From Puniceicoccaceae bacterium K14 (GTDB taxonomy: Bacteria > Verrucomicrobiota > Verrucomicrobiia > Opitutales > Opitutaceae), in the NCBI GenBank assembly GCA_022538095.1, contig JAKYXN010000057.1:1-34439 (forward strand): a stretch of DNA of 34,439 bases, in the 5' to 3' direction. A program made the translations under genes and the position numbers. Positions 1,415 to 29,368 of this stretch are shown here, piece by piece; position 1 is the stretch's first letter; each line of letters starts with the position of its first letter. The notes beneath the pieces were generated by a model. The model saw only the letters and a list, made by a program, of their open reading frames with translations. It ran no database searches and was not told where the DNA came from.

Positions 1415-1437
1415 GTCTGATCGACGATCAGACCTAC
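1415..1437 (-). repeat. GTAG-headed palindrome (REP-like), single
   Basis: On the minus strand a GTAG tetranucleotide (CTAC at 1434-1437) precedes a perfect palindrome, GTCTGATCG-A-CGATCAGAC (1415-1433, 9-bp arms, one-base centre). GTAG followed by a hairpin is the known layout of REP sequences mobilised by RAYT transposases. It lies between the convergent integrase and glycosyltransferase genes. No T-tract follows, so it is not a standard terminator. Confidence 0.55.
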
Positions 1438-3984: not shown

Positions 3985-4037
3985 GTAGGGCCTCAGCTTG
4001 CTGAGAGCCAAGTAGCCAATCAACTCCCCCTCCCTAC
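3985..4037 (+). repeat. GTAG-headed palindrome with a decayed partner (REPIN remnant)
   Basis: This is the only clear structure in the 334-base gap between holA and the next gene. GTAG at 3985 leads into GGCCTCAGC-TT-GCTGAGAGCC (to 4009), a hairpin with one bulge. The same 25-base unit, one base different, recurs at 22339-22363. A CTAC at 4034-4037 in the opposite sense suggests an inverted partner, but the partner's hairpin is not preserved. The rest of the gap is AT-rich; I see no convincing promoter, RNA or ORF in it, although the divergent promoters for holA and the 4224 gene must lie there. Confidence 0.6.
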
Positions 4038-9274: not shown

Positions 9275-9420
9275 GTGCCTATAAGTTTAGTCAAAACATC
9301 GTCTTTAAAGCAATTTTGCCTATTTTTATTAACATTAAGAAAATATTATTAATAATACTTTTGCACAAAAATATTTGCAAATAAGTCATTTATTGATTTT
9401 TTGACTAAAATTATAGGCAC
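9275..9420. promoter_or_regulatory. long inverted repeat framing the hipB leader (candidate operator pair or small element)
   Basis: GTGCCTATAAGTTTAGTC begins a 22-base arm at 9275-9296. Its reverse complement recurs at 9399-9420 with a single mismatch (G/T at the eleventh base). The left arm starts directly after the gnd terminator T-tract; the right arm ends one base before the hipB ATG. The 102 bases between are very AT-rich and include ATTATTAATAAT, a perfect palindrome. HipB-type antitoxins are known to repress their own promoter through inverted sites, so these could be operators set for looping. A miniature transposable element is the alternative, but no target duplication is seen. Confidence 0.5.
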
Positions 9421-9421
9421 T

Positions 9422-9772
9422 ATGGATGTATATGGGAAAAGTGATAAAGCCTTACAGCGGGAAATCGGAGAGCGCCTACAAATGGCGAGGCTCAACGCCA
9501 ACATGAGCCAGCAAGAGCTAGCCGACACCAGCGGGGTCTCCCGCAACACGATCGTAAATGCCGAAAGTGGCCAAAGTTGCACTCTTGGGACGCTCATCGC
9601 TTTGTTGCGAGGTCTCAAGATGCTGGACCAACTGGACTTACTCCTTCCCCCTCAAACAATCAGCCCGATCCAATTATTTAAACTTCAAGGCAAGCAACGC
9701 CGACGAGCTACCGGGAAACGCCAAACGAAAGAAGTCGCAGAAGATCCAGGGCCATGGAATTGGAAGGAATAG
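9422..9772 (+). CDS. hipB: XRE-family antitoxin/repressor, HipB-like
   Basis: This 116-residue protein has a classic helix-turn-helix at about residues 15-70 (GERLQMARLNANMSQQELAD, then TSGVSRNTIVNAESGQ). A basic, probably disordered tail (KQRRRATGKRQTKE) ends PWNWKE, a Trp-rich end often seen in HipB-type proteins encoded beside HipA. In the known systems the dimer binds operator DNA, recruits HipA and neutralises it. ATG at 9422 was preferred to a TTG at 9401 because the TTG lies inside the inverted repeat and adds only seven unconserved residues. hipA starts 25 bases downstream. The inverted repeat ending at 9420 is the likely control site. Confidence 0.85.
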   Translation: MDVYGKSDKALQREIGERLQMARLNANMSQQELADTSGVSRNTIVNAESGQSCTLGTLIALLRGLKMLDQLDLLLPPQTISPIQLFKLQGKQRRRATGKRQTKEVAEDPGPWNWKE

Positions 9773-9797
9773 TCGAATTCTGATTTAATAAACAATC

Positions 9798-11102
9798 ATG
9801 AGTATCGCGGCCGAAATTCATCTATGGGGAACCCAAGTGGGGGTCGTTTCATGGGACGATCGTAGCCAAATCGGATCTTTCCAATACGATCACGATTTCC
9901 TGAGAAGCGGCATCCAAATATCTCCTATCCATATGCCCTTGCGACAGCGACCCTACAGCTTTCCCAACCTTAAAAGGGATAGTTTCAGCGGCTTGCCAGG
10001 GACCCTCGCAGACTCCCTTCCAGATAAGTTTGGCCACTTGCTCATCGATCAATGGCTCGCCAAACAAGGGCGGCTTCCAGACTCCTTTACGCCGATCGAA
10101 CGCCTCTGCTACGTTGGCTCACGGGCAATGGGAGCACTCGAATTTCTCCCTGAAACACGTATTGCGAAAAGTAAATCACAGGAAATCCAAATCGATGCGC
10201 TCGTTGGACTCGCAAACGAAGCCCTATCTCAAAAAGAACAGCTACAAACCGAACTCGACACGGTTGACGCTCGGGAAGCGATGAACGACATCATTCGAGT
10301 CGGTACCTCCGCAGGCGGCGCACGAGCAAAAGCGGTCATCGCTTGGAACCCTGAAACAAATCAAGTGCACTCTGGGCAGCTCGACGCCCCGGAAGGCTTC
10401 ACTCATTGGCTCCTAAAACTCGACGGCGTAAGCGGCAATCGTGACAAAGAAGTTGCCGACCCAATGGGGTACGGTAAAATCGAATACGCTTATCATTTAA
10501 TGGCGGTAAATGCTGGCATTTTCATGATGGACTGCCGCCTCTTCGAAGAAGGAGGACGTAGCCACTTCATGACACGCCGCTTTGACCGTGGGCCTGAGAA
10601 TCAAAAAATTCACATGCAAACGCTCTGCGGAATGGCGCATTATGATTTCAATCAAGCCGGAGCGTATAGCTACGAACAAGCGATCCTAGTCATGCGTCAA
10701 CTCGGACTCCCGCACAACGACATAGAAGAACAATATCGCAGAGCCATCTTCAACATACTTGCTCGTAACCAAGACGATCATACAAAAAACATTGCTTTTC
10801 TGATGAACAAGAAAGGACAATGGAGACTTTCCCCCGCCTACGACATCAACTATAGTTACAATCCCCAAGGGGCCTGGACAAGTAGCCACCAAATGAGCCT
10901 TAATGGCAAACGAGATAATTTTCTCTACGAAGATTTCCTGGAAATGGCGAAAAATATCGATATCAAAACGCGTAAGGCCAAAACCATCCTCACCGAAGTC
11001 CTCAGCTCCGTATACAAGTGGAAAGAATTCGCAGACAAGGCGAACGTAGAGCCTTCAACAAGTAAAAGTATTTCAAATACATTTAGAATGCTCCATCCCT
11101 GA
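9798..11102 (+). CDS. hipA: HipA-type Ser/Thr kinase toxin
   Basis: HipA kinases phosphorylate a cellular target (glutamyl-tRNA synthetase in E. coli) and cause growth arrest or persistence. The 434 residues carry the N-terminal subdomain (GTLADSLPDKFGHLLIDQWL), the phosphate-loop region GTSAGGARAKA (169-179) with Ser171 where the regulatory autophosphorylated serine lies, and the lysine-bearing strand FTHWLLKLDG. The catalytic motif RNQDDHTKN (323-331) and the metal-binding PAYDI (346-350) are also present. All key residues look intact, so it should be active. The longer N-terminus and the SAGGARAKA loop resemble the Shewanella-type HipA more than the E. coli one. It pairs with the HTH gene upstream; the target is unknown. 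Confidence 0.92.
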   Translation: MSIAAEIHLWGTQVGVVSWDDRSQIGSFQYDHDFLRSGIQISPIHMPLRQRPYSFPNLKRDSFSGLPGTLADSLPDKFGHLLIDQWLAKQGRLPDSFTPIERLCYVGSRAMGALEFLPETRIAKSKSQEIQIDALVGLANEALSQKEQLQTELDTVDAREAMNDIIRVGTSAGGARAKAVIAWNPETNQVHSGQLDAPEGFTHWLLKLDGVSGNRDKEVADPMGYGKIEYAYHLMAVNAGIFMMDCRLFEEGGRSHFMTRRFDRGPENQKIHMQTLCGMAHYDFNQAGAYSYEQAILVMRQLGLPHNDIEEQYRRAIFNILARNQDDHTKNIAFLMNKKGQWRLSPAYDINYSYNPQGAWTSSHQMSLNGKRDNFLYEDFLEMAKNIDIKTRKAKTILTEVLSSVYKWKEFADKANVEPSTSKSISNTFRMLHP

Positions 11103-20486: not shown

Positions 20487-22319
20487 ATGCAAAGATCAAC
20501 TAAACTTACTCTCTTGGGAACTCTCGTTTGCTCAGCCGCAATCGCAGAAACCGACTCGGTTTTCACACTTCCTGAACTGAATATCGAAGCCCAACACACG
20601 GCCATCATTGAACCAATTTCGACCTACGCCGCTCCGGTATCTCGTCTCGAGCTGAATCCACAAGTAGACCTCCAAGTTCGTAATCTCGCTGAAGCTCAGG
20701 GAGATATAACTATTCGAGGCGGAATTTTCGAAAACACCGGCTTCCGCCTAGGAGCGAGCAATATTCTAGACCCCCAAACAGGTCACTACTCAGCTGAGCT
20801 CCCTATTGCGCCTGAAATGATGCAAGGTCCTGGCATATTCGTAGGTGCAGAAAATGCGCTCTTCGGTGCCAATAGCTCAGTTGGAACCATCAATTACTCA
20901 TTCTCCGAAATTATCGACGGCGGCAAAGCGAGTATCGGATTCGGAAACAATGACCTGAACTTCCAACGGGCTTACACCGCGTGGACTTTCAACTCTGAGT
21001 CGGATTGGTCATGGGGAGCAGAAGCAGAAGCTTCTCGGTCCGAAAGCGCAGGATCAATCGAAAACGGCGACCACAATTTTAACCGTTACAGCGGTCGCCT
21101 TCAGCTCCTTGGACCGAAATCTCAAACCGACCTTATCGCAGGCTATCAAGCTAAATTTCTTGCTTGGCCAGAGCTTTATGCAGCTCCATTCGGTTCCAAT
21201 GAGTCCGACAATGTTAAGACCACACTCATCATGCTTAATCACCAGCAGACTTACGATGAGAACACAAATTGGGAAGCCACTGCTTACTACCGACGTCACG
21301 CGGATCACTACCTCTTCAACCGATTTTCAGATAGTAGAGCATTTGTGCATGAAACAAAAGTATACGGCCTCGGCCTCTCAGGGGCGCATCGTTTTAGCGA
21401 CAGTTATTCCCTCAATTTCAGTAGCCAATTTACGGCAGACGAAATCGAATCGACCAACCTTGAAAACAGCTTCACCAGTCGCAACTATCTCAAACTTGCC
21501 GTTCTTCCAGAGTATCGCTTGGACTTAAACAACGAGTCTTCACTCTCCATACGAACAGGACTTTCCTTCGACGATACTAACCGCAACGAATCGGAATTTT
21601 CCCCAATCGCTGACATCACCTACACCAAGCAACGCAATTCTGGTTACGACAAGTTTTACCTAGCCTTTACTCAAGCGACTCAAGTTTCTGGATACACTGC
21701 CATAGGTGGGGGAACGAGTGGACTCTTTGCGAGCAATCCCAATCTCGAGCGAGAAATTAGCCAAAACCTAGAACTCGGAGCCACTTGGCAACGCAACCAA
21801 TCGAGCCTGAGTGCCGCCCTCTTTGTTCGTCAGGACGACGATCTCGTGGACTGGACCTATTCCACAGCATCCTCAAACGCTCGCTCTGCAAACAATGTCG
21901 ATATCGAAACGTTCGGTTTCGAAGCCATCGCCTCTCACAGTTTCGGCAATTTTGAGATACTCGGAAGCTACACATATCTTGACAAAGATGAAGACTACGG
22001 CCTTGCAGATGTCGATGCGAGCTTCTATGCCCTAAACTTCGCCGAACATCGCGTTACCGCCGCGGCTATCTTGAGTTTGGGGGAAATTGCTCAAATCCGC
22101 TTAGACAATGAATGGCGTCATCAAAAAGAAAATACAGTTAGAAACGACGATAACAGGGCATTTTTCACTCACTTTGGAATGTCTTTCTTCATCCCTGAGT
22201 ACGAAAACTTGGAACTCTTCATTGCAATCGAGAACCTCTGGGACGAAGACTTCGAAGAAGTCCCCGGCACCCCAGGTCGCGGCCGCCAATATAGCGCCGG
22301 AGCCAACTGGTCCTGGTAA
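20487..22319 (+). CDS. TonB-dependent outer-membrane receptor (BtuB-like plug)
   Basis: A signal peptide (to about AAIAETDS) is followed by LPELNIEAQ, a TonB-box-like stretch. The plug domain (~45-150) has VRNLAEAQGDITIRGGIFE, DPQTGHYSAELPIAPEMM, then GPGIFVGAENALFGANSS. The rest is a barrel of alternating strands ending GRGRQYSAGANWSW, with an aromatic C-terminus. At 610 residues it is at the short end for the superfamily, close to BtuB-like receptors. These proteins take up scarce ligands such as vitamins, iron complexes or glycans with TonB energy. The ligand cannot be read; no riboswitch is seen upstream. It is divergent from the sensor operon, which might regulate it. Confidence 0.88.
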   Translation: MQRSTKLTLLGTLVCSAAIAETDSVFTLPELNIEAQHTAIIEPISTYAAPVSRLELNPQVDLQVRNLAEAQGDITIRGGIFENTGFRLGASNILDPQTGHYSAELPIAPEMMQGPGIFVGAENALFGANSSVGTINYSFSEIIDGGKASIGFGNNDLNFQRAYTAWTFNSESDWSWGAEAEASRSESAGSIENGDHNFNRYSGRLQLLGPKSQTDLIAGYQAKFLAWPELYAAPFGSNESDNVKTTLIMLNHQQTYDENTNWEATAYYRRHADHYLFNRFSDSRAFVHETKVYGLGLSGAHRFSDSYSLNFSSQFTADEIESTNLENSFTSRNYLKLAVLPEYRLDLNNESSLSIRTGLSFDDTNRNESEFSPIADITYTKQRNSGYDKFYLAFTQATQVSGYTAIGGGTSGLFASNPNLEREISQNLELGATWQRNQSSLSAALFVRQDDDLVDWTYSTASSNARSANNVDIETFGFEAIASHSFGNFEILGSYTYLDKDEDYGLADVDASFYALNFAEHRVTAAAILSLGEIAQIRLDNEWRHQKENTVRNDDNRAFFTHFGMSFFIPEYENLELFIAIENLWDEDFEEVPGTPGRGRQYSAGANWSW

Positions 22320-22338
22320 ACTACAAATCAAAAAAAAC

Positions 22339-22403
22339 GTAGGGCCTCAGCTCGCTGAGAGCCGCAAATACTAAACTCGGCATCCAGTAAACTGGAGCCC
22401 TAC
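22339..22403. repeat. complete REPIN-like pair of inverted GTAG palindromes
   Basis: GTAG (22339) plus GGCCTCAGC-TC-GCTGAGAGCC forms the first unit to 22363. After 15 bases, an inverted second unit (22379-22403) reads on the minus strand GTAG, then GGCTCCAGT-TTA-CTGGATGCC. Each is a hairpin headed by GTAG, and the whole can fold into a larger structure. This is the layout called REPIN, a doublet of REP sequences. The first unit matches 3985-4009 with a single difference. It lies between the receptor and the convergent EamA gene. No RAYT transposase gene is in the window. Confidence 0.75.
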
Positions 22404-22407
22404 GAAA

Positions 22408-23265
22408 TCAAGAAGCTGTCTTTCTTCCCCAAATAATCGCTACAAATATTAAGCTTCCTCCAGAAGTCAGCTTTATAAGATCATCCCTACTCACCTCAGC
22501 AATTTCGCCAAAGACAAATAGCGAGGTCGCCATTGCAAGAGGAACCACTGCATTATTGAAAGCAGCTAATGTCCCCGCGTTAACGATCGCTGCTCCCTTA
22601 TTCCATAAGAAAAAACCGATTCCCGCAGCTACGACACCTAGATAGACGAGCACCCAAATTTGTTCTCCCGTTGGTTGAAAATGCCCCCAATTCCCCAATA
22701 CAATCGCCGAAGCTCCGGAGAAAAGGAACGCGCCAAAGTACATGAGTGCAAACACAGACGAATCCCCCACATCCGGATGCGCTTGCTTCCAGCGCTTGTA
22801 AAGCACCTGCCCAAGCCCGAAAGCTACATTCGCTATCTGCATCAAAAAGAATCCAACCCAAATCGCCCCCTCTGGTTGAGCATATTTAATGACCCCCGCT
22901 CCAAGAATCGAAAGTGCAGAGCAAGCCAACAGCTGCCACCGAAAAGTCCTTTCGAATATCGAATGCGACACCGCAACGTATAACGGCGTCATCACTGAAA
23001 ACAACGCCACCAAATACGACGGCAAGTAACTATATGCACGAATATACGCCACATACATCACTCCAAACTGCAACGCCCCTAAAGCAATCAACTTGCAAGC
23101 ATTCGGCCAACTAATCCTCATCAACCGCAAAAACGGGACAAAGCAAACACAAGCCAAACCGAGACGAACTGCTGCCACAATCGTCGAATCAAGGCCACTT
23201 AAACGACTGCCTATAAGGCCAAAAGAAAATGCCCATAGGCACGAGACTATTATCAGATAAACCAT
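22408..23265 (-). CDS. EamA/DMT-superfamily transporter
   Basis: This 285-residue membrane protein has about ten helices in two homologous halves, the layout of EamA (DMT) permeases. The first half starts MVYLIIVSCLWAFSFGLIGS, the usual EamA opening, with SYLPSYLVALFSVMTPLYVA at its end. The second half has AIWVGFFLMQIANVAFGLGQ and LVYLGVVAAGIGFFLWNKGA, ending NNAVVPLAMATSLFVFGEI. Members export or import amino acids and other metabolites; the substrate is not assignable. It is a single gene with its 3' end against the REPIN. Confidence 0.88.
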   Translation of the reverse strand: MVYLIIVSCLWAFSFGLIGSRLSGLDSTIVAAVRLGLACVCFVPFLRLMRISWPNACKLIALGALQFGVMYVAYIRAYSYLPSYLVALFSVMTPLYVAVSHSIFERTFRWQLLACSALSILGAGVIKYAQPEGAIWVGFFLMQIANVAFGLGQVLYKRWKQAHPDVGDSSVFALMYFGAFLFSGASAIVLGNWGHFQPTGEQIWVLVYLGVVAAGIGFFLWNKGAAIVNAGTLAAFNNAVVPLAMATSLFVFGEIAEVSRDDLIKLTSGGSLIFVAIIWGRKTAS

Positions 23266-27385: not shown

Positions 27386-27620
27386 ATGCTTCAAACCATT
27401 CCATTTTTAGACTTATTTCGTCATTTAAGAGAAATGATAGGAAACGATAAAATCGATTAGAACAATAACTAAGTTAAGAAAAACTTGGAGAAGGAAGTAT
27501 TTCCCCTTAGCCAACGATTAAATACAATTAACTTGTTCAATCCTATACCGATAGACTCGTACTTCCTTAAAGAATGCCCCCGTTCTTTCAATTTTGAGCG
27601 TTTCAAGCTATTGCAAATTT
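27386..27620 (-). pseudogene. decayed tandem copy of the pectate lyase gene 3' end
   Basis: This fills most of the 400-base gap between the DUF1080 and pectate lyase genes. CTTATTTCGTCATTTA at 27412 recurs at 27625, and similarity continues for about 200 bases at an offset near 213. On the minus strand the copy reads LKERGHSLRKYES, then IGIGLNKLIVFNRWLRGN. This lines up with LKEWDTLLAG and ITGLNGMTVFYRWVAGN at the end of the intact tail, 12 bases shorter and without the same stop. The left edge (27386-27411) also resembles 27596-27621, hinting at a third remnant. It is probably the fossil of a lost tandem paralogue. I see nothing else in this gap except a 30-codon ORF (27312-27404). Confidence 0.65.
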
Positions 27621-27710
27621 TTGGCTTATTTCGTCATTTATCAGAAACTGTAGGCTTCGAAAAAATCGATTAAAACACTAACGAAATCAGGGGGGAATTT
27701 GGAGAAGGAT

Positions 27711-29368
27711 TCAATTTCCAGCTACCCAACGATAAAATACAGTCATCCCGTTCAATCCTGTAATCCTTCGAAGTCCCGATATGCTAGGCCCCGCCAAAAG
27801 AGTATCCCATTCTTTCAAATTCGTGGAGCTCTCTATCCAACCTCCGCTCGGCATATTTTCCCATCGAAGAACAAAATCATCCTCAGCAATCTCAATAACT
27901 AAACTAGCCTCATCACCAACCCGCAACGAACTCAATTCATGAAGATACACTTCCAAATTAGTATACCCATCGCCCCTTAACCCTCTTTCCAATGAATCCG
28001 CCAAAGTTACGTCCAAACCTTTGAGACGCTCCCATTCATCAGGCAGACCATCCTTGTCACTGTCCCACAGATCGCCTCGCTTCGTAGGTTCGAATTCAGG
28101 AAACCCACCTACATCTGTTTCAAAGTTCACTAGCGCCCCCGACAAATTCAACCAATCCAGCAAAATGCGGTTGTCTACTGGGTCCGACTCCCAGGGTCGA
28201 GCGCCGGCATTCCCAACGATGTAACTCGGCAAGTCCCTGCTGGATATAACATCAAGCGAATCATGCCAGATTGGTTTGGACTCGGTAACATATTGAGAAA
28301 CGGACCGACCCTGTTCATTTGTTAGAAGGGGAATCAGAGAGTTTAGAGCACCAAAGTGATCGAACCTACGATTGTCCTCAAAATAGACACTCAATGCGTG
28401 CCAATCTTCTAAGCTTGGAACCCCTGCGAATTCATCCAATGCAACAAAGAGAGGAATTGGATTTCCAAAAAAGCTATTGAGAGGCCCCCAGTGTAAGCTA
28501 TTACCCACTACAGAGATTAGAGCTTCTTCTGGCAAACCATCCCCGGAGCTTGCAAGCTCTTCCGACCATTCATCGTAAACAGTCGAAAACTGCATTCCAA
28601 TCCGTCCTGGATTGTAAATAACATTGTTCATCATTACCCCCCTAGCCCCTGCTTTAAAAACAGGATTGCGGGCCATATTATTGGCATAGAGGTTTTTAAT
28701 AACTGCGATCTCTGTCACATTATCATGAATCAAAGAGCCCTTCGAATGCTCACCCTCAGCATGGGTGGCCACGCTTAATCCTTCCGCCACGATGTTATTG
28801 CTCAACGTAATTCGATGCGAGGTATTGGCCCTCCACTCATCTGGATTTTCCCCATCAAAGCGCGGTCCAGTAACAGTCAAATTCTCATCCACCGCCCAGC
28901 TAATCTACGATAACATCATGCGACGAATTAATCGTAATTCCATCCGGCTCCCAAACCTCACCGACGTGCCCCGCAGCTCCAGGCCTAACTCGTAAGTGCT
29001 GGATAATGACATCATGCGTCTTTTCCACAGCGAATCCCCCGTCGATAATCGTAATTCCAGGATAAGGAGTCGATTGCCCAGCCACCGTTATGGTATGGAT
29101 TGGAAATAACAAGCGAGCTCCCTTCGAGGTCGATAAGGCCACCCACATTAAACAATACAGTCCGAGGTCCTTCTGCTTCCAATGCTTCCCGAAGCGAGCC
29201 CTCACCTTCCGCATTTAAGTTATTAACGATATAAACTTCGCCACCACGGCCACCCACTGTTTCCGAAGCCCAACCTTCTGCGCCGGGAAATGCCAGAGGT
29301 TCGGAACGGGCTAAAAACGATGTCAAAAAAAAGGCCGCGAGAAAGACGATTCTGCGAGGAGTCAACAT
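27711..29368 (-). pseudogene. secreted pectate-lyase-like protein, broken by two lesions
   Basis: Three reading frames make one protein. Frame one (from 29368) has a signal peptide and LAFPGAEGWASETVGGRGGE, then GSLREALEAEGPRTVLFNVG. The frame shifts near 29090-29096; removing one base would read NPYITVAGQST. Frame two has ITVAGQSTPYPGITI and EPDGITINSSHDVIVD, then a stop. Frame three resumes with WAVDENLTVTGPRF after a loss of about 11 bases at 28902, which removes the expected His-Cys-Ser-Val of the conserved VDHCS-SW motif. This is a PL1-like right-handed beta-helix, with a DSDKDGLPDEWE spacer and a C-terminal sandwich domain (ESSTNLKEWD). Two independent lesions make a true pseudogene likely. 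Residual coding bias suggests recent loss. Confidence 0.85.

Follow-up and report, generated by a model that had tools for sequence, protein, structure and literature searches.

A REPIN in Puniceicoccaceae bacterium K14 from a REP-RAYT system whose transposase gene is very probably broken

The REPIN between two convergent genes and its relatives in the window

The window, i.e. the whole stretch of 34,439 nucleotides analysed here, is contig C311 of the Puniceicoccaceae bacterium K14 assembly (5.72 Mb in 358 contigs, 97% completeness). Between the convergent genes of a TonB-dependent receptor and an EamA-family transporter lies the intergenic stretch 22339-22403 (Table 1). It consists of two hairpins headed by GTAG, each having a stem of eight pairs and a single bulged base. 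Folded as single-stranded DNA, the 65-mer reaches -14.7 kcal/mol, compared with a mean of -6.35 kcal/mol for its shuffled versions (z -4.37), and none of 200 shuffles folded as well. The preliminary description had read the stretch as two GTAG-headed hairpins placed head-to-head in REPIN layout; sequence and fold against shuffles agree on this, and the doublet is a genuine REPIN. An Rfam scan of the window gave no match at the gathering threshold. On the minus strand eight T are located at 22325-22338, after the REPIN as read from the EamA gene.

Table 1. Coordinates, in the window, of the REPIN, its neighbours and the other GTAG palindromes.
Feature	Position	Strand	Sequence	Remarks
TonB-dependent receptor gene	20487-22319	+		left neighbour of the REPIN; convergent; context only
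Left REP unit	22339-22363	+	GTAGGGCCTCAGCTCGCTGAGAGCC	GTAGGG-headed; one bulged base
REPIN spacer	22364-22378			15 bases between left and right units
Right REP unit	22379-22403	-	GTAGGGCTCCAGTTTACTGGATGCC	head-to-head to left unit; compensated stem; structure-model E 2.6e-5
EamA-family transporter gene	22408-23265	-		right neighbour; stop codon starts 4 bases past the REPIN; context only
Second REP unit of the window family	3985-4009	+		one loop base differs from the left unit
CCCTAC	4032-4037	-		putative remnant of a decayed partner unit
GTAG-headed perfect palindrome	1415-1437	-		8-bp stem, 3-nt loop, no bulge

A recurrence of the element at 3985-4037 had also been claimed. This holds for one unit, which is present with a single base changed and is flanked by two ORFs running apart; it does not hold for the doublet. 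The 53-mer has no better fold than its shuffled versions, 46 of 200 of which did as well, and the partner is reduced to CCCTAC; the site is thus a REP beside a degenerate partner and falls short of a full doublet. The third GTAG palindrome, at 1415-1437, is real and, as had been stated, different. It has one copy in the genome within three mismatches and another shape without bulge; as a member of the window family it was rejected. Its outer shape (GTAG, 8-bp stem, 3-nt loop) is that of a second REP family around a RAYT-like gene on contig C349, from which it differs in the loop.

Three further features of the window were seen. A tyrosine recombinase at 96-1390 is split over two overlapping frames, with a SAM-like N-terminal domain at 96-680 and the catalytic domain at 656-1390; it is probably a frameshifted integrase, integron-integrase-like as judged by eye only. 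A HipA-like kinase gene with a helix-turn-helix partner occupies 9401-11102, and a 26-base inverted repeat (92% complementary, 9275-9300 and 9395-9420) extends with its second arm over the start of the helix-turn-helix partner gene. At 27405-27762 two imperfect direct repeats, 68 and 49 bases long, are spaced by 213-215.

Copy number, placement and fold of the window family

The 25-base unit was counted across the whole genome. At up to three mismatches 32 matches were obtained, two of which come from both strands of a single perfect palindrome on C11; the reversed control gave none. With 150 of the 2994 candidates from a first look scored, a covariance model built from 23 distinct units yielded at least 68 matches at E<=1. 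The family is multicopy, and single-copy occurrence, named beforehand as an outcome that would refute mobility, does not apply. For closer examination 64 units at 50 sites were retained from 69 rows; the five dropped were one with a long insert and four of the weakest, two of these four being weak partners of sites counted here as singlets. Two facing units were present at 14 of the 50 sites, i.e. thirteen doublets of 56-89 bp and one 28-bp perfect palindrome matching on both strands. The other 36 sites were counted as singlets, including the two with a weak partner among the dropped rows. Pairs of units in any orientation other than facing were absent from the 50 sites. The simple doublet pattern GTAGGG...CCCTAC, which misses longer REPINs, occurred at seven places compared with one in the control, and of the seven the one on C303 is no REP. 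In a sample of 400 kb from the genome no full-length match of the window family was present, and none of the listed covariance-model matches fell into those stretches; about three or four sites would be expected there if copies were evenly spread. The family may thus be unevenly distributed over the genome.

Copies in intergenic regions only had been proposed as a further check. By a mechanical ORF test with a minimum length of 100 aa, no site (0/50) had its midpoint deeper than 30 bases within an ORF, whereas this was so for 1940 of 2214 positions drawn at random from the same loci; two midpoints (L026, L105), up to 30 bases inside an ORF end, were counted as outside. Two neighbouring genes could be assigned at 48 sites, 22 of which were convergent and 7 divergent; the remaining two have one neighbour only. 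A GTAG foot with an imperfect palindrome, many dispersed extragenic copies and inverted doublets, by which REPs and REPINs are recognised, are all present.

Stem pairing was examined in alignments of 25-base units only, from this genome and from G032, another genome of the same order. In the alignment of 47 distinct own units, pairing holds in 95.5% of the stem cells and 40 cells carry double changes, figures that lean to structure because units were picked with a structured model or with a filter holding the same structure. None of 500 shuffles reached either value, and slid controls paired in 23-42%. Taken as a covariation measure, further pair types in the 47 units were not above shuffles. 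In 15 distinct units of G032, chosen with the same leaning, pairing is complete (100% of stem cells), and 31 double changes occur. The GTAGGG...GCC cap is invariant in these 15 units, and each of its columns is at least 90% conserved in the 47 own units. The stems of G032, free to vary by compensated changes around a fixed cap, suggest that this clade of RAYTs might read cap and fold, not the stem sequence.

The RAYT genes of this genome and of its relatives

The window holds no RAYT gene, and a dependence on one elsewhere in the genome had been predicted. When the genome was searched for Y1 transposases, a match on C36 proved to lie next to a window-family REPIN. With the G032 homologue as query the gene was recovered in two parts, one near the end of C36 (G032 residues 2-94), with ruvB as gene neighbour, and the other near the start of C295 (residues 89-160). 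Window-family REPINs are located upstream of the part on C36 and downstream of that on C295, and each contains the exact left unit of the window (C36:5717-5741 and C295:416-440). A RAYT gene flanked by GTAG REPs of the right family was thus found as predicted, yet it looks broken. The second half has an in-frame TGA. Compared with NCBIfam NF047646 the pieces scored 63 bits and, for part of the second half, 25.4 bits, lower than the cut-off of 80 as may happen with fragments. The HUH motif and the tyrosine, which we take to be the catalytic residues, were not found intact in one frame: the gene is split between contigs, IS ends lie at the break and the second half has its stop codon. Given the split at IS ends and the in-frame TGA, the RAYT gene is very probably broken in this assembly, with C36 and C295 presumably adjoining.

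The break itself has a recognisable pattern. One 14-base repeat opens both terminal stretches, the final 89 bases of C36 and, in outward reading, the initial 90 of C295. This repeat has 40 exact matches in the genome (control 0), at least 34 of them not more than 160 bases from a contig end and one farther away. TA precedes all of the 21 ends inspected; two kinds of end exist, and C36 has one, C295 the other. Elements of the IS630/Tc1-mariner type are characterised by inverted terminal repeats, a TA target and a transposase. The pattern at C36/C295 appears to be the trace that is expected from an IS630-like insertion in the RAYT gene in a fragmented assembly. A multicopy IS630-like element is probably behind many of the assembly breaks, with the repeat present 40 times and at least 34 of these near contig ends.

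A second RAYT-like gene, on C349 (L090 1402-2217), has one in-frame TGA, and three pairs of palindromes from a different GTAG family, each pair head-to-head, surround it. The own loci and the 400-kb sample contain a few more copies of this second family (in the sample, one perfect GTAG hairpin whose partner has 7 of 8 pairs).

Intact RAYTs are encoded in two related genomes. The RAYTs of G032, G027 and G004 scored 91.2, 87.6 and 95.5 bits against the NCBIfam cut-off of 80, and a protein identical to that of G032 is encoded by Opitutales bacterium OFTM360. In G032 and G027, two other genomes of the same order, REPs matching the covariance model stand on both sides of the intact gene. The same REPs beside a cognate RAYT were therefore found for the own split gene, G032 and G027; for G004 the 4 kb fetched around its RAYT gave no model match, though 20 matches are present elsewhere in that genome. 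In G032 two neighbouring ORFs, one being the RAYT, end inside REP copies (L086 1427-1464 and 2135-2172). Both have the C-terminal stretch RHRASSSPT, and the RAYT shares its final codons with one REP. When the G032 RAYT was compared with PDB sequences at E<=0.01, E. coli TnpA-REP (PDB 4er8) was the sole match (E 3.4e-7); the two are distant in sequence.

Is the association between these REPs and RAYT genes general? Among the top 30 loci matching a RAYT profile, model-matching REPs were present at 15 (E<=1) or 7 (E<=0.01), and all of the 46 REP matches lay outside the matched gene segment, within about 300 bases. At 29 loci of other Y1_Tnp genes, used as controls, no REP match was seen at E<=1. 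These sets are not clean, since the profile was built with three of the 30 loci, and among the 29 controls at least three (L081, L082, L083) match it as well. After removal of these loci the counts were 12/27 and 0/26 at E<=1 (Fisher P 1e-4); at the stricter E<=0.01 they were 4/27 and 0/26, which is not significant (P 0.11). Among 372 genomes of the order, REPs were detected in at least 29 (a lower bound from a stricter filter, from which the matches of G003 and G019 are missing) and the RAYT profile in 138. The profile was matched in 26 of the 29 REP-positive genomes compared with 112 of the 343 others (Fisher P 1.5e-9, indicative only as the genomes are related), which leaves three REP-positive genomes without it. 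In a phylum-wide sample at least 12 of 387 genomes matched with the stricter filter, six of the 12 outside the order. A RAYT search in named genomes (30 loci) gave the G032 record as the only one that clearly carries the window REP family; among the seven closest named RAYT loci it was again the only clear one, a second REP match being weak (E 0.056).

Origin and present state of the family

Family, fold, copy number, intergenic placement and a split RAYT gene with matching REPs can be read from the DNA itself. Taken together, we consider it very likely that the window copy belongs, as its REPIN, to an ordinary REP-RAYT system in which the transposase has been inactivated and the copies are now decaying. 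As a REPIN it would be a non-autonomous element whose two inverted REP units form hairpins in single-stranded DNA. Its arrival at 22339 was most likely by copying or insertion in trans, carried out by a cognate HUH single-tyrosine transposase (RAYT/TnpA-REP). By analogy with established work on TnpA-REP, the enzyme would recognise the GTAG foot and the hairpin in the single strand, and past mobility of the family by its own RAYT is inferred on the same basis. The genomes sampled, all from other genera, showed neither an empty site nor an excision product or insertion polymorphism. The RAYT gene, next to ruvB and with a REPIN beside each half, was then presumably cut when the IS630-like element inserted, and a stop codon is present in its second half. 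Multiplication of the family has probably ceased and its copies drift apart, so that most sites would keep one recognisable unit.

The own units agree with this course in several respects. Of the 64 units 55 are distinct, compared with 18 of 62 in G032, where a single unit occurs 22 times. The G032 units came from 40 short stretches, mostly selected by match strength, and from the RAYT locus; from 71 matches at E<=0.05 nine were dropped (seven with inserts, one partial, one weakest), and genome-wide G032 has 91 model matches at E<=0.1. Since this set leans to strong matches, the contrast in identical copies is indicative. It is restricted to identical copies: the mean pairwise difference between units is alike, 5.2 here and 5.3 in G032, because G032 holds several stem classes. 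Within the own genome singlets differ among themselves by 5.84 and doublet units by 4.33. The full GTAGGG...GCC cap is kept in 40 of 55 own 25-mers, i.e. in 18 of 22 from doublets and in 22 of 33 singlets (raw counts). These figures would suit a family in which doublets used to replicate and singlets are what is left of them. In Pseudomonas, according to the available part of PMC3116915, doublets replicate and singlets are remnants; in what is available of PMC3686654, REPs stop multiplying and degrade once their RAYT has become a pseudogene or is lost.

Because the RAYT looks broken, present mobility of the window family is unlikely, as far as the assembled sequence goes. Might an intact RAYT nevertheless persist in the unassembled part, in other cells, or act from another locus, so that the family is still mobile? 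The assembly in 358 contigs with 97% completeness leaves room for this, and four own units are identical, being the unit that also stands beside the RAYT halves. However, matches of the own genome to the RAYT profile are limited to the two halves and the C349 gene, and the latter has its in-frame TGA and REPs of its own, different kind. The gene on C314 codes for a 328-aa Y1 protein, and no covariance-model match is listed on that contig. With the great majority of own units distinct as well, we regard continued mobility as rather improbable.

Slightly less probable still is that the host keeps the units for a function of its own, such as protection of mRNA 3' ends or supercoiling, and that the link to RAYT is historical. 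The preference of sites for convergent 3' ends and the compensated changes by which stems stay paired would suit such a role; however, paired stems may date from the mobile period, and the larger divergence of singlets compared with doublet units together with the incomplete cap argues for weak selection now.

Ordinary intrinsic terminators, alike through the same job at gene ends, are a highly improbable explanation and were rejected for most copies: convergent sites are over-represented (22/48) and TTTTT on the GTAG side is found in 4 of 64 units, above the background of 1.4%, yet 60 of the 64 lack TTTTT at the tail position, none has it at the other end, and terminators would not be expected to share a GTAGGG cap, to stand in facing pairs or to accompany RAYT genes. 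A terminator family, which had been named as an alternative to the REPIN reading, thus fails for most of the family. The window copy, alone, might double as terminator of the EamA gene: its minus-strand RNA folds with -35.2 kcal/mol just past the EamA stop codon and is followed by eight U. It is absent from a terminator scan, whose loop limit would exclude so long a hairpin anyway.

The presumably inactivated REP-RAYT system with decaying copies has close parallels. REPINs and RAYTs of Pseudomonas fluorescens share with it intergenic inverted REP doublets, hairpins, the RAYT link and more diverged singlets, as described in the available part of PMC3116915; by comparison with that account, copies are fewer here (about 50 sites), spacers are variable and the RAYT is apparently broken. 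The genome also fits the model of decay after loss of RAYT in the accessible portion of PMC3686654, with the differences that inactivation here looks like an IS insertion and that another phylum is concerned. The preliminary description had held REPIN families to be little described in this phylum. This needs correction, as GTAG REPs and REPtrons are abundant in the verrucomicrobium Opitutus terrae according to the available text of PMC3733652. The families and REPtrons there have in common with ours the phylum, the GTAG foot, head-to-head dimers and a RAYT with flanking REPs; consensus sequences of its families GTAG-1 to GTAG-24 are given there in a figure, and ours might be one of these families. 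In the literature on REPs in Verrucomicrobia, searched mostly among papers free of subscription, PMC3733652 alone was relevant.

Possibly this genome offers a natural double knock-out, i.e. the RAYT of the window family cut by an IS and the C349 RAYT, with its three REPINs of the other family, carrying a stop codon, along with a G032 RAYT clade that reads cap and fold; we put this forward tentatively, doubt slightly outweighing belief. If it is true, the decay of REPs could be compared with that in intact sister systems.

GTAG REPs in Verrucomicrobia and decay after RAYT loss are already published, and the known picture is unchanged. A specific REP family and its RAYT clade are now placed in the bacterial order of the window, and an apparently broken transposase beside relatives with an intact one provides a ready comparison for how long REPs outlive their RAYT.
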